Below are positions 29,435-34,543 of a DNA stretch of 34,876 nt, piece by piece. The notes under the pieces were generated by a model. That model worked only from the letters and a program-made list of their open reading frames with translations, was not told the DNA's origin and searched no databases. Source of the DNA: Cyanobacteria bacterium SIG27 (lineage in GTDB: Bacteria; Cyanobacteriota; Vampirovibrionia; Gastranaerophilales; Gastranaerophilaceae); contig SUTT01000020.1 in NCBI GenBank assembly GCA_015152565.1, positions 1 through 34,876 on the forward strand, in the 5' to 3' direction. The first letter of the stretch is position 1. Every line of letters begins with the position of its first letter. Both the position numbers and the translations under genes were made by a program.

Positions 29435-30361
29435 ATGGATAACGATACATATAAAAAAATCAAGTTGGATTTTCAAGATAAATATTTTAAAGTTATCAAG
29501 CCAAAGCTTGCATATTACGAAGAAAAAAGACTCGCCGGACAAGCAAAATGGAAAAAACAAAAAAACACTGTAGTTCTAATTGGAACTATACTCACCATAG
29601 GAGCTTTTTTCATTCATCCACAACTTGCTTTTATGGCTGGTTTTATGGCATTAATTGTCGGGCTTATAATAAGAACTTCTATTGCAGGTAAAATTAACCT
29701 TGAAATGAAGCAAGATTTTATGCCAATAGTTTGCGAATGTTTCGAAAATTTAAGATGGTCAAATGTACGTCCTGCAAGGACTAGCGAATTTTATGATGTA
29801 GGATTGGTTGATTATTATAATAGAACTTCGTTTGACGATATTTTTATTGGGAATTATAAAGGTGTACATTTTAAAATAATAGAAGCCGATTTAAAATATG
29901 AAAGCGGTAGCGGTAAAAATCGTTCTGTTAGAACAATTTTATACGGAATTATTTTAAAAATCGAAGCTAATAGCACAAATAGTTCGCACACAATAATTAG
30001 ACCGGATTCTCTAATTAAAGGAACAATTAAAAATCTAAAAAGAACGGAGCTGGAAGATGTAATCTTTGAAAAGAAATTTGATGTTTATACGAACGATGAA
30101 GTTGAAGCCAGAGTAGTGATTACTGCTGCATTTATGGAAAGATTAAATAACATTGGAAAAGTTTTTAAAGCATATAGTACAAGTTGCGCTTTTTTAAATA
30201 ATGCTGTTTATGTTGCACTTGATACTCGAAAAGATATGTTTGAAATATTCGACTTTAATAAACCGATTGATGGGGCTGAGTTTTTCGCTCGTATGTTTGA
30301 AGAATTACTTTCAATTTATAAATTAATTGATTATCTAGAATTAGGACAAAAAACCACATAA
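29435..30361 (+). CDS. DUF3137-type membrane protein (paralogue 3)
   Basis: A 308-aa member of the five-copy family. The cytoplasmic start (KIKLDFQDKYFKVIKPKLAYY) is followed by a helix hairpin at about 45-88, a soluble segment with FDDIFIGNYKGVHFKIIEADL, GIILKIEAN, then the C-terminal signature LEDVIFEKKFDVYTNDEVE with ITAAFMERLNNIG. It is close to paralogue 5 along the whole length, suggesting recent duplication. No Shine-Dalgarno is visible; a possible -10 (TATTGT, 29423-29428) lies 6 nt before the ATG. It is followed after 15 nt by lemA. DUF3137 next to LemA is a known association without known function. Confidence 0.78.
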   Translation: MDNDTYKKIKLDFQDKYFKVIKPKLAYYEEKRLAGQAKWKKQKNTVVLIGTILTIGAFFIHPQLAFMAGFMALIVGLIIRTSIAGKINLEMKQDFMPIVCECFENLRWSNVRPARTSEFYDVGLVDYYNRTSFDDIFIGNYKGVHFKIIEADLKYESGSGKNRSVRTILYGIILKIEANSTNSSHTIIRPDSLIKGTIKNLKRTELEDVIFEKKFDVYTNDEVEARVVITAAFMERLNNIGKVFKAYSTSCAFLNNAVYVALDTRKDMFEIFDFNKPIDGAEFFARMFEELLSIYKLIDYLELGQKTT

Positions 30362-30376
30362 AGAAAGGGAAATAAA

Positions 30377-30958
30377 ATGGAAAATTTATTAGTACTTATT
30401 ATTTTTCTTGTGCTTGCACTGATTGTATTAATGGCAGTCTATGGCATGTATGTTTCTGTTATGAAAGCAAGAAATAAAACACAAGAAGCTTTTTCTTCAA
30501 TTGACGTACAATTAAAGAAAAGATATGATTTAATTCCAAATATTTTAAAAATTGCTAAAAAATTCATGGAGCACGAAAGAGGCTTGATGGAGGAAATCGT
30601 TAGCCTAAGAAGTAAAGCAATGGGCGTTTCTAATGATTTATCTGAATCAGAAAAGAAATTTGCTCTTGATAAGCAAATTAATGCAAAACTTGGTCAAATT
30701 ATGGTTGCAGTTGAAAACTATCCAGAATTAAAATCTGACCAAACAATGGTTCAGGCAATGAATGCTTTTCAAGATGCAGAAGAGCACATTGCTGCTGCAA
30801 GAAGATTTTATAACTCTGCGGTTTTAGAATTAAACAACAAAACAGACATCTTTCCAACTTCAATAATTGCTGCTATGTGTGGTGTGCGAAGACAGCAATT
30901 CTTTGAAACGGATGAAGTTTCAAGGCAATCGATTGATGCAAGTAATTATTTAAATTAA
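30377..30958 (+). CDS. lemA: LemA family protein
   Basis: A 193-aa LemA-type protein: one N-terminal membrane helix (about 4-26), then a long cytosol-side or extracytoplasmic helical bundle with the family hallmarks VMKARNKTQEAFSSIDVQLKKRYDLIPN near 30-58, a heptad-rich middle, LGQIMVAVENYPELKSDQ near 103-121 and ARRFYNSAVLELNN near 138. LemA proteins are membrane-anchored helical proteins of uncertain function, sometimes tied to envelope stress or surface proteins. An AAAGGGA ribosome site lies 7 nt upstream. It sits between DUF3137 copies, 15 nt after one and 37 nt before another, and a hairpin follows it. Residue identities are typical; the role is open. Confidence 0.93.
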   Translation: MENLLVLIIFLVLALIVLMAVYGMYVSVMKARNKTQEAFSSIDVQLKKRYDLIPNILKIAKKFMEHERGLMEEIVSLRSKAMGVSNDLSESEKKFALDKQINAKLGQIMVAVENYPELKSDQTMVQAMNAFQDAEEHIAAARRFYNSAVLELNNKTDIFPTSIIAAMCGVRRQQFFETDEVSRQSIDASNYLN

Positions 30959-30960
30959 TA

Positions 30961-30982
30961 AAAGCCCCGCAAGGGGCTTTTT
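30961..30982 (+). terminator. Hairpin after lemA, possible weak terminator
   Basis: AAAGCCCC (30961-30968) pairs with GGGGCTTT (30973-30980) over a GCAA tetraloop. The T-run is short (five, partly in the stem) and the next gene of the cluster begins 14 nt later, so it may attenuate read-through or stabilise the upstream mRNA rather than stop it fully. Confidence 0.65.
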
Positions 30983-30995
30983 GAGAGCATAAGCA

Positions 30996-32072
30996 ATGAA
31001 AGTTGAAAAAGAATATTTTATAAATTATTACAATCAAAAAATTAGACCTGAAATTTTAAAATTTACTAAACAACACAAGGTGTGTTTAGAAAAATTTAAT
31101 AAACAAGCAAAAAATGTTAAACCTAAGTCTTTGCTTAGTGTTTTTATTATGCCTGCTTTAAAATTTTTGGCATTTTTTATTTTGATATTTATATTTTCTC
31201 CTTTCAATGAAGCTCTTTTTAATAAAGCTCCCATGGTCGCTATTGCATTAATGATTTTTTCGGTATTATCAATACCTTTGTTGTTTGTAGGTAGCGGCAT
31301 TAAGTTCGTATTAGATATTTTTGCAGCAATAAATGTTTTTCTTCCATTTTATAATAATTTAACTTCTCTTAGCGAGCTTGAAAGTCAAATTAAAAAAGCT
31401 GTAATGCCTGTTTTTTGTCAAATGTTTAAAAATCTTAAATGGTGTCATGGAACATATCAAAACAGATTACAAATATTTAATTCTAAAGTAATTCCGGCAG
31501 GTTTTGATTATAAAAAAGGTTATGATCTTGATGATATTTTTTATGGCGTGATTGATGATGTAAGATTTGAAATAATAGAATTAAAAGTGCCTTTGTTATC
31601 AAATATTGCGTCAAATAATATTCCAAAGGAACAAGAAATGATTTCAAGCATTGTATTAAAAATTGATATAAACAAAAAATTTAATAATCACACTTTGGTT
31701 TATCCTTCATATTGCGAAAAGCCGCTTGATTTTATTGAAACGCAGCTTGAAGATGTAGTTTTTGAATATAAGTATAATGTTTATACGCATAATGAAACCG
31801 AGGCAAGATATCTTATTACTCCAAAATTTATGGAAGCACTAAATAACGCAAAAAGAGTACTGAAGTGTGAAGATATTTGCTGCTCTTTTTATAATAACAA
31901 TTTGTTTGTTTTATTGGATTATAAAGTAAAAAGCGAAAACGAGCTTTTTGGACATGATTTATTTTCTGTTAATATTTACAATGAAAATATTGATGATGTA
32001 CATATTTATATGAAAATATTTAGTGAATTAACAAATTTCTTAAAAGTAATTAATTATTTTAAAAGAGCCTAA
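30996..32072 (+). CDS. DUF3137-type membrane protein (paralogue 4)
   Basis: A 358-aa family member, the most divergent of the plus-strand set. After an N-terminal helix (KFTKQHKVCLEKFNKQ) come two or three membrane helices between about 48 and 115, then KAVMPVFCQMFKNLKWCHG, DDIFYGVIDDVRFEIIELK, a GIVLKID-like strand, and the signature LEDVVFEYKYNVYTHNETE with ITPKFMEALNNAK. It has several Cys (CHG, CEDICCSF) but no recognised metal motif. Initiation appears weak (GAGAGC 7-9 nt upstream). It lies just after the hairpin that follows lemA. Confidence 0.75.
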   Translation: MKVEKEYFINYYNQKIRPEILKFTKQHKVCLEKFNKQAKNVKPKSLLSVFIMPALKFLAFFILIFIFSPFNEALFNKAPMVAIALMIFSVLSIPLLFVGSGIKFVLDIFAAINVFLPFYNNLTSLSELESQIKKAVMPVFCQMFKNLKWCHGTYQNRLQIFNSKVIPAGFDYKKGYDLDDIFYGVIDDVRFEIIELKVPLLSNIASNNIPKEQEMISSIVLKIDINKKFNNHTLVYPSYCEKPLDFIETQLEDVVFEYKYNVYTHNETEARYLITPKFMEALNNAKRVLKCEDICCSFYNNNLFVLLDYKVKSENELFGHDLFSVNIYNENIDDVHIYMKIFSELTNFLKVINYFKRA

Positions 32073-32144
32073 TTAATTCAAACAAATGAGCAAATAGTGG
32101 TTACTGTATGATATTTTAAATTACATATATATTATGGAATTATT

Positions 32145-33176
32145 ATGGATAGAGATACTTTTTTTAAAATTAAACAAACTTTTCAAGAAAATTATTTTCA
32201 GCACGTAAAGCCCAAATTAACTGAATTTGAAGCAAAAAGAAAAAAATATTTAAAAAATGCAAATTTAACGGCACCAATTTTTATTGTGTTAGCTATATTA
32301 TATTTTCTTTTTTATGACAAATTAGGACAAGAAAGCTGCAACTTAAATATAGTTATTGCTTTGGTTGTTATTTCGATTGCATGTCATAAATATGCTCAAT
32401 GGTTATTAAATGTTGAAATTAAAAAATCAGTAATGCCTCATATATGCAAATGTTTTGAGGGGTTGTCTTGGAAAGATTCAAGTTATGATTTAAAAGAAAG
32501 TTACGAACCAACAGGTATTGTAGAAAATTATAATATTTCTTTTGTTGACGATGTTTTTTTGGGAAAATACAATGATATTGATTTTGAAATTATCAAAACA
32601 TCATTAAAGAAAGATTACAAAAATAAAGGTAAAACAACACTTAGTGCTCTTAATGATCCAAATAGTGATTTGTATAAAAGCATGCCTTTTTTGTTGTATA
32701 TTATTGGTTTTGCTGCATATTTGGCAGGTAAAGTTGGCATCGGACAAGGGAATTCAAAAAAAATATTTGATGGAGTTATTTTAAAAATTGTATCTGTTAA
32801 ATCTTTCGCATCTCATACATTAATTAAACCTGATTCTTTGATTAAAATGACAACGGTTAATTTAAACCATACCGAATTAGAAGACGTTGTTTTTGAAAAA
32901 AAATATGATGTTTATTCTAATGACCCAGTTGATGCCAGATATTTAATCACAACCGCATTTATGGAAAGATTAAATAATATTAACAGTGTGTTTGAGGCTG
33001 ATAAATTAAGTTGTGCTTTTTATCAAAATAGTGTATATATTGCTCTTAAAACCAAAAAAGAATTGTTTGCGCCTTGCAATTTGAAAAAGCCGATTGATGA
33101 TGCTAGTGCATTTGTTGAAATTTTTCAGGAAATCATTAGTGTTTATAGACTGATTGAGCATCTTAAATTGTCGTAA
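32145..33176 (+). CDS. DUF3137-type membrane protein (paralogue 5)
   Basis: A 343-aa protein very like paralogue 3 (MDRDTFFKIKQTFQENYF against MDNDTYKKIKLDFQDKYF at the start; SLIK.T..NL..TELEDV near the end). It differs by an inserted stretch at about 160-200 containing an extra membrane-like segment (MPFLLYIIGFAAYLAGK), in a place where paralogue 3 has only a short loop. The C-terminal signature reads LEDVVFEKKYDVYSNDPVD with ITTAFMERLNNIN. A GGAA run lies about 6 nt before the ATG. The 72-nt gap to the previous gene is AT-rich with TATATT-like boxes, so it may have its own promoter. Confidence 0.77.
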   Translation: MDRDTFFKIKQTFQENYFQHVKPKLTEFEAKRKKYLKNANLTAPIFIVLAILYFLFYDKLGQESCNLNIVIALVVISIACHKYAQWLLNVEIKKSVMPHICKCFEGLSWKDSSYDLKESYEPTGIVENYNISFVDDVFLGKYNDIDFEIIKTSLKKDYKNKGKTTLSALNDPNSDLYKSMPFLLYIIGFAAYLAGKVGIGQGNSKKIFDGVILKIVSVKSFASHTLIKPDSLIKMTTVNLNHTELEDVVFEKKYDVYSNDPVDARYLITTAFMERLNNINSVFEADKLSCAFYQNSVYIALKTKKELFAPCNLKKPIDDASAFVEIFQEIISVYRLIEHLKLS

Positions 33177-34163: not shown

Positions 34164-34171
34164 TAAAATTA

Positions 34172-34204
34172 AAAAAAAGGATACCAAATGGTATCCTTTT
34201 TTTT
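34172..34204 (+). terminator. Bidirectional terminator after the HExxH gene
   Basis: GGATACC (34180-34186) pairs with GGTATCC (34191-34197) over AAAT, flanked by eight A's and seven T's. It ends the plus-strand gene and can also end minus-strand transcription coming from the tRNA side. Confidence 0.9.
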
Positions 34205-34227
34205 AATAATATGGCGGGAACGACGGG
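34195..34227 (-). repeat. 33-bp copy of the tRNA-Asp 3' end (att-like)
   Basis: Identical, base for base, to 34449-34481, which covers the CCA end, 3' acceptor strand, part of the T arm of tRNA-Asp and its downstream T-run. Beyond 34227 the copy diverges at once and no tRNA follows. This is the layout left by site-specific integration into a tRNA 3' end, or by decay of a tandem tRNA copy. Confidence 0.8.
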
Positions 34228-34231
34228 ACTT

Positions 34232-34417
34232 TCTTGGATTTTGACAGCTCGAAAATTAAGCACTTCGCTTTAAAAACTGCGTTTTTGTCGCTTCGTTAAT
34301 TTTCTCGAACAGACGGGCTCACGACGGGTTTAAAAACCCTGTTCCGCCCTAGTCAAAATCCGCCGAACTTCCGCGATAATGCTTTGCATTATGCGGGTTC
34401 AATCTCATCATCCAAGA
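34232..34417. other. Structured non-coding element between tRNA-Asp end repeats
   Basis: No gene. The segment is bounded by TCTTGGA (34232-34238) and its inverse TCCAAGA (34411-34417). Inside are GGATTTTGAC (34236-34245) with GTCAAAATCC (34352-34361), TCGAAAATTAA (34249-34259) with TTAATTTTCTCGA (34296-34308), AAAAAC/GTTTTT (34272-34286), GGGTTT/AAACCC (34326-34339) and a bulged stem around ATAATGC/GCATTAT (34371-34396). It is richer in G+C than the flanks. It could be a structured RNA, a MITE-like element or the remnant of an integrated element. Confidence 0.6.
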
Positions 34418-34426
34418 TATATTAAT

Positions 34427-34458
34427 AAAAAAAAGACATCTAACGATGTCCTTTTTTT
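34427..34458 (-). terminator. tRNA-Asp terminator
   Basis: GACATC (34435-34440) and GATGTC (34445-34450) form the stem over TAAC, with A- and T-runs on the two sides. On the minus strand it starts just after the CCA end of tRNA-Asp. Confidence 0.85.
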
Positions 34459-34481
34459 AATAATATGGCGGGAACGACGGG
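34449..34481 (-). repeat. 33-bp repeat, tRNA-Asp side
   Basis: Partner of 34195-34227 at an offset of 254 bp. It includes the T-run of the terminator, the CCA end and the 3' part of the tRNA, so the intact gene lies on this side. Confidence 0.8.
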
Positions 34482-34543
34482 GCTCGAACCCGCGACCTCA
34501 TGCGTGACAGGCATGCGCTCTAACCAAACTGAGCTACGCTCCC
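34466..34543 (-). tRNA. tRNA-Asp (anticodon GTC)
   Basis: The minus strand folds as a full cloverleaf: 7-bp acceptor GGGAGCG/CGTTCCC, D arm GCTC/GAGC, anticodon arm CATGC-CTGTCAC-GCATG with GTC, and T arm GCGGG-TTCGAGC-CCCGT. Discriminator G and an encoded CCA (34466-34468) follow. GTC with G73 identifies Asp. It is downstream of and in the same direction as rpmA, about 43 nt away. Confidence 0.97.

Follow-up and report, generated by a model that had tools for sequence, protein, structure and literature searches.

The window, by which we mean the whole 34,876-nt stretch of DNA analysed here, comes from the genome (G000) of a gut bacterium of the order Candidatus Gastranaerophilales, and carries, among other genes, three DUF3137 genes with one LemA gene among them at 29435-33173. 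Further along, rpmA (L27) adjoins a tRNA-Asp(GTC) gene, and the following features were identified around this tRNA.

34466-34543, minus strand: tRNA-Asp(GTC), intact, read as functional and as the anchor of the cassette (ARAGORN; Rfam RF00005, 67.6 bits)
34427-34458, minus strand: terminator 1, proximal to the tRNA, stem GACATC/GATGTC, read as the first part of the cassette (repeat and inverted-repeat search)
about 34364-34404, minus strand: spacer hairpin, an inverted copy of the T-arm 5' half (GAACCCGC ... GCGGAAGTTCG), ending in GTTCG (from the sequence)
34232-34363, minus strand: palindromic repeat of 132 nt, GCGGATTTTGACTAG...GTCAAAATCCAAGA, a three-way junction (covariation; model R1, 137.7 bits, this same copy belonging to the model's training alignment)
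34212-34231, minus strand: displaced tRNA-Asp 3' fragment, T-loop to CCA, with one mismatch to the gene (direct repeat)
34172-34203, minus strand: terminator 2, stem GGATACC/GGTATCC, read as the displaced host terminator (repeat and inverted-repeat search)

Read on the tRNA strand, the order was tRNA, terminator 1, T-arm-like hairpin, palindrome, tRNA 3' fragment and terminator 2. Locating both tRNA ends confirmed the duplication at a distance of 254 bp that an earlier note on this DNA had reported: the tRNA 3' end with its T-run lies at 34198-34230 and again at 34452-34484, and the repeat, described there as 33 bp and perfect, is real, with 32 of 33 positions identical and 30 bp perfect. The two terminators share a common plan and are 78% alike with differing stems, as had been noted, although on the tRNA strand they follow the tRNA ends rather than precede them. 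A terminator-like hairpin occupied the place of terminator 1 in most tRNA-linked units, and relatives with an empty site carried a single variable terminator at the position of terminator 2.

The segment folded better than shuffled sequences on both strands (z -4.1 on the plus and -3.6 on the minus strand), and the ORF list held no frame of at least 80 aa within 34164-34465, hence no integrase gene in this interval, in agreement with the structured, non-coding character proposed earlier. Rfam returned nothing in the segment above gathering score besides the tRNA. The inverse heptamers CTTGGAT/ATCCAAG, proposed as the termini of the element, are present but do not mark its ends, because the orthologous arrangement in the related genome G012 lacks the pair; the true palindrome is that at 34232-34363. 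Chance origin was excluded because G012 repeats the arrangement (92% over 223 bp) and because it recurs at further tRNAs. The segment is a composite of a terminator and T-arm-like hairpin with a separately dispersed palindrome.

To compare sites, we matched the rpmA-tRNA-Asp region in 26 of 28 genomes of the genus. Three of the 26 sites (G000, G012 and G005) were occupied by a displaced tRNA end and a palindrome, the palindrome of G005 being preceded by a degenerate neighbour and not by the GTTCG hairpin. In the remaining 23, stretches of up to 520 nt showed the tRNA-Asp gene with neither displaced end nor palindrome; among them, G039 was viewed on a second contig that begins at the tRNA, and a degenerate copy resembling the T-arm lies farther along in G013. 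The segment was also matched elsewhere in G000 and in relatives, so both the empty sites and the additional copies for which the earlier note had suggested a search were found. The tRNA-Asp gene is a hotspot, with downstream sequence that changes among relatives.

The palindrome family and its insertion sites

The palindrome belongs to a family of dispersed repeats of about 80-190 bp that end in CAAGA. Alignment of 26 copies yielded a three-way junction in which 21 of the 29 pairs show double changes, which answered the covariance folding proposed earlier; 98.1% of 754 cells were paired, and 143 cells carried double changes, compared with 42.7 in shuffled and at most 38 in slid versions. Nearly all pair changes were Watson-Crick. 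On the sense strand, G.U exceeded A.C by 14 to 6 in alignment A1, which was not significant (p 0.12), and by 31 to 8 in alignment A2 (p 0.0003), A2 being model-fitted and its copies related. A mobile structured RNA, which the earlier note had also considered, is one possible reading of the strong covariation and of this sense-strand G.U excess.

The R1 covariance model matched 17 of 28 genomes of the genus and, under stricter filters than in the genus search, 67 of 146 genomes and 21 of 40 genera of the order. Pattern scanning of a titled sequence collection gave at least 113 stretches, many titled Candidatus Gastranaerophilales and many merely "bacterium"; among the matches listed, a few were titled Clostridia, Acinetobacter or Fusobacterium CAG:439. 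The palindrome was also present on three viral contigs, in one of which (L366) it ends a frame that resembles, by eye, the baseplate gene of L077, L078 and L080. Our literature search, in which subscription papers were largely outside reach, retrieved no description of the family, which is large and apparently undescribed. The palindrome is accordingly one member of an order-wide family and not the lone remnant considered in the earlier note, whose description as an att-flanked satellite without integrase held for the att-like flanks, the structure and the mobility and gave way, as worded, to a composite containing a member of this family.

Copies of the palindrome alone were also found at stop codons and precisely where terminator T-runs end, nearly all of them in sense orientation. 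Among 117 pattern copies (after dropping 2 duplicates), a tRNA 3' fragment lay on the sense side in 19 and on the antisense side in 0, a T-run lay on the sense side in 8 with 0 A-runs, and a sense stop-codon junction was found in 5, as against 3 when the mirror orientation was tested more loosely, at three offsets; the strict test left 58 of the 117 without any tag. Among 112 model matches (after dropping 1), stop junctions numbered 17 in sense and 1 in antisense, T-runs 7 and A-runs 3, the three A-run matches being stop-codon cases with A-rich downstream DNA. The 15 T-run cases, some of them at near-identical loci, lay at the end of terminator-like hairpins. The bias at stop codons may result from selection, since an antisense insertion would lengthen the protein; selection would not account for the bias at terminators and tRNAs.

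Judged by eye from translations, the stop-codon hosts resembled rplJ, rpsK, rplB, groEL and a phage baseplate gene. At rplJ, where 33 genomes matched, 30 loci were returned and 29 were read, the palindrome sat at TA^ of the stop codon in 3 of the 29 loci (L368, L376 and L380), and 24 had neither a palindrome nor another insert. L375 and L397, from two g15 genomes, had an insert of another palindrome-like kind immediately after the rplJ stop codon. In L088, L159, L258, L273, L284, L291, L294, L322, L341 and L356, the palindrome lay between a MuB-like gene (by eye) and the next gene, ending the first frame and providing the next frame with an in-frame ATG 39 nt ahead of it in all 10 copies matched (12 loci given); these loci are probably in Mu-like prophages. 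In L154 the palindrome lies inside an ORF and is read through in frame.

Two more general interpretations of these sites were rejected. Several copies lie between open frames that rejoin when the copy is removed, as for an intron; most, however, interrupt a stop codon (TA|G) ahead of the following gene, and the ATG of the muB group and the read-through in L154, in the cases inspected, also count against an intron. In L121, L123 and L320 the palindrome sits inside REP-like hairpins (GTTGGGCATA|CCTGCCCAAC) with the loop as entry point, and as a general rule such loop targeting did not hold, with junction-spanning stems of at least 5 bp in 9 of 96 copies versus 6.1 by re-pairing, leaving single cases only.

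Recurrence at tRNA genes, arrays and islands

Units linked to tRNAs were found at Asp, Arg, Asn, Ala, Glu, Gly, His, Leu, Ser and Tyr, with the recurring layout of tRNA, terminator, T-arm-like hairpin, CAAGA-ending palindrome, displaced tRNA 3' end and a different terminator. Their hairpins were tRNA-specific: the plan of the spacer hairpin, with letters particular to the tRNA, was also seen at Arg, Leu, Asn, His, Ala and others. The distance from tRNA to palindrome was 66-102 nt, in a search that allowed 30-130, and units were near-identical across genera. A same-strand copy of the last 18 nt of the tRNA occurred within 900 nt downstream of 55 of 113 distinct tRNA genes, a set drawn from loci enriched for the palindrome family, with 0 in the antisense control; displaced copies were present at 15 tRNA species. 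CAAGA stood at the junction of 46 of 68 displaced fragments; random windows had it in 39 of 1360. A T-run followed the tRNA in 48 and the displaced fragment in 52 of the 68. Some displaced fragments, mainly of tRNA-Arg, were instead preceded by the junction GGGGTCCCTG and belong to other insert types.

The 74-nt tRNA-Asp spacer was present in 58 of 288 genomes of the family and 15 of 41 genera, and in the 30 loci opened it led into several different palindromes. Some of these loci held arrays of at least two units, in the order tRNA, cassette, tRNA end, cassette, tRNA end (L407, L421 and L411 among the loci listed). Near-identical units stood at tRNA-Asp genes that differed in isoform, upstream genes and neighbourhood. 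G120 (L174, tRNA-Asp CGTTCCC) and G103 (L164, CGGTCCC) carried the same unit, and in each both tRNA 3' copies matched the local gene; in L334, which may be chimeric, the copies were unlike.

Larger assemblies were seen in two genomes. In G012 (L428, G012:C40, 6278-19500), a 12.7-kb island lies behind tRNA-Arg(TCT) and carries a tyrosine integrase gene close to its distal end; next come a displaced fragment that begins at the anticodon loop and two small cassettes, each closed by a further tRNA fragment, the second with the palindrome type of the window. A second array in G000 (L002, 1400-1990, G000:C15) adjoins tRNA-Gly(TCC) and comprises about three units with a period of 119 bp, made of a short tRNA end, a terminator and other palindromes, with one copy of the window's palindrome type inside.

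Candidate mechanisms and known systems

At the level of sequence comparison, the repeat family, its fold, the empty and occupied sites, the recurrence at many tRNAs, the tandem arrays and the stacking behind an integrase island together establish the anatomy and mobility of the cassette. Our preferred reading, to which we give a little better than an even chance, takes the segment for a non-coding cassette, anchored at the tRNA, that a recombinase supplied in trans has inserted at the tRNA 3' end. A mobile unit consisting of terminator, T-arm-like hairpin and covarying palindrome ending in CAAGA would integrate at the 3' end of tRNA-Asp, leaving the tRNA intact with a new terminator behind it and pushing the old 3' end and old terminator 254 bp downstream. 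For its movement the gene-free unit would depend on a site-specific recombinase; the likeliest candidate is a tyrosine integrase with the T-arm/acceptor region as its attachment core. The palindrome would serve as the recognition structure of the cassette and could also spread alone to other transcript ends.

Tyrosine integrases were present in 16 of 16 genomes tested, and their number did not track palindrome copy number; none of the cassettes inspected contained an integrase gene. One integrase normally serves one tRNA, and the many tRNA species, the host-matching copies in L174 and L164 and the free palindromes at other transcript ends do not fit a trans-acting integrase well. Judging by their sequences, the L174 and L164 copies speak for host-derived ends and would fit target duplication better than a carried attP end, whereas the unlike copies of L334 speak against host-derived ends. 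A tRNA integrase does not account for palindromes alone at stop codons and terminators. To look for an autonomous parent, we inspected 20 regions, each up to 4.2 kb long, in which a left end lacked its partner, and none had an ORF between matched ends; an 863-nt pair in L237 (G000) proved to be a truncated copy with a chance right end.

Several other origins were weighed against this cassette reading. We consider it possible, though unlikely, that an ordinary selfish palindrome of REP, RPE or MITE type fell by chance into the attR of a deleted tRNA island; palindromes away from tRNAs, the changing sequence at the tRNA-Asp hotspot and the full integrase island at tRNA-Arg in G012 would agree with this, but random decay should scatter the narrow tRNA-palindrome distance, and both the near-identity of units across genera and the recurring inverted T-arm copies argue against it. 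Slightly more doubtful still is a reading in which tRNA 3' ends are the repeat of an accretion array of folded, gene-free cassettes, piling up like integron cassettes or CRISPR spacers, with a mobile form of sense-strand RNA or single-stranded DNA that would enter transcript ends (tRNA T-loop/CCA, stop codons, last base of terminator T-runs) through a novel enzyme. A Cas1- or casposase-like or other long-stagger enzyme, inserting the unit behind the tRNA CCA with a target duplication of about 19 bp and thereby turning tRNA 3' ends into array repeats, would explain why the shared unit of L174 and L164 is flanked in each case by the local tRNA, and the layout of L407, L421 and L411; given the unlike tRNA 3' copies in L334 and in the window, and stop-codon palindromes at which no 19-bp duplication was seen, we think it improbable.

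We judge a non-autonomous derivative of IS110/IS1111 (bridge RNA) or IS200/RAYT elements to be, if anything, marginally less probable than such an enzyme. Imperfect subterminal inverted repeats and insertion without clear target duplication would suit it, and PF01797 (RAYT-type) was found in 5 of 26 genomes, all five within the 18 carriers, but PF02371 (DEDD transposase) was found in 0 of 26, PF01797 was found neither in G000 nor in 13 of the 18 carriers searched, and the 11 PF01797 loci held one R1 match, itself at tRNA-Asp (L151). Very improbable, finally, is an origin without any mobile element, in which tRNA-Asp was duplicated in tandem and its second copy decayed: the fragment retains a T-arm-like left part (GCGGAAGTTCG) in register, yet most relatives have a single copy, the interior repeat belongs to a family with copies at other tRNAs and elsewhere in the genome, and the decaying second tRNA-Asp common to all relatives that the earlier note had named as favouring duplication is contradicted by the empty sites.

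The trans-supplied cassette reading also leaves the unit distinct from systems that it resembles. Rickettsia palindromic elements are palindromic repeats able to sit in frame inside ORFs, a likeness seen here in one case (L154), but most copies of the present family lie at transcript ends and tRNAs, outside ORFs. Group IIC introns insert directly behind terminator stem-loops in sense orientation, as these palindromes do; the palindrome is far too small for a group IIC ribozyme and had no Rfam match at gathering score. With integron attC cassette arrays the likeness is one of layout only. In the Islander paper (PMC4383910), a displaced tRNA fragment is the signature of tRNA integration and the published search rejects intervals below 2 kb or without integrase; the cassette shares with such islands the intact tRNA, the same-strand 3' fragment downstream, the T-loop/acceptor site and tandem stacking, but measures about 0.2 kb and has no integrase inside. 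GTAG and CGTC REPs/REPINs, as described in PMC3733652, are simple hairpins of 20-40 bp, dispersed mostly outside ORFs, the CGTC repeats seemingly without a dedicated transposase. Dispersal, position and the apparent lack of a dedicated transposase are common to our family, which differs in size and tag, forming three-way junctions of about 80-190 bp docked at tRNA ends, and a RAYT (Y1_Tnp) gene was found 0 times in G000. The cassette resembles a gene-free, shrunken tRNA island combined with a palindromic repeat and matches the full definition of neither.

Elements at tRNAs that are below 2 kb or free of integrase escape standard island finders, as these are described in PMC4383910. If our reading is true, tRNA genes across a whole bacterial order would gather gene-free mobile cassettes, tRNA terminators would be supplied by mobile DNA, and structured DNA or RNA would reach transcript ends through a hidden recombinase or reverse transcriptase. 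Because insertion at terminator ends and stop codons is oriented, this mechanism can be tested.
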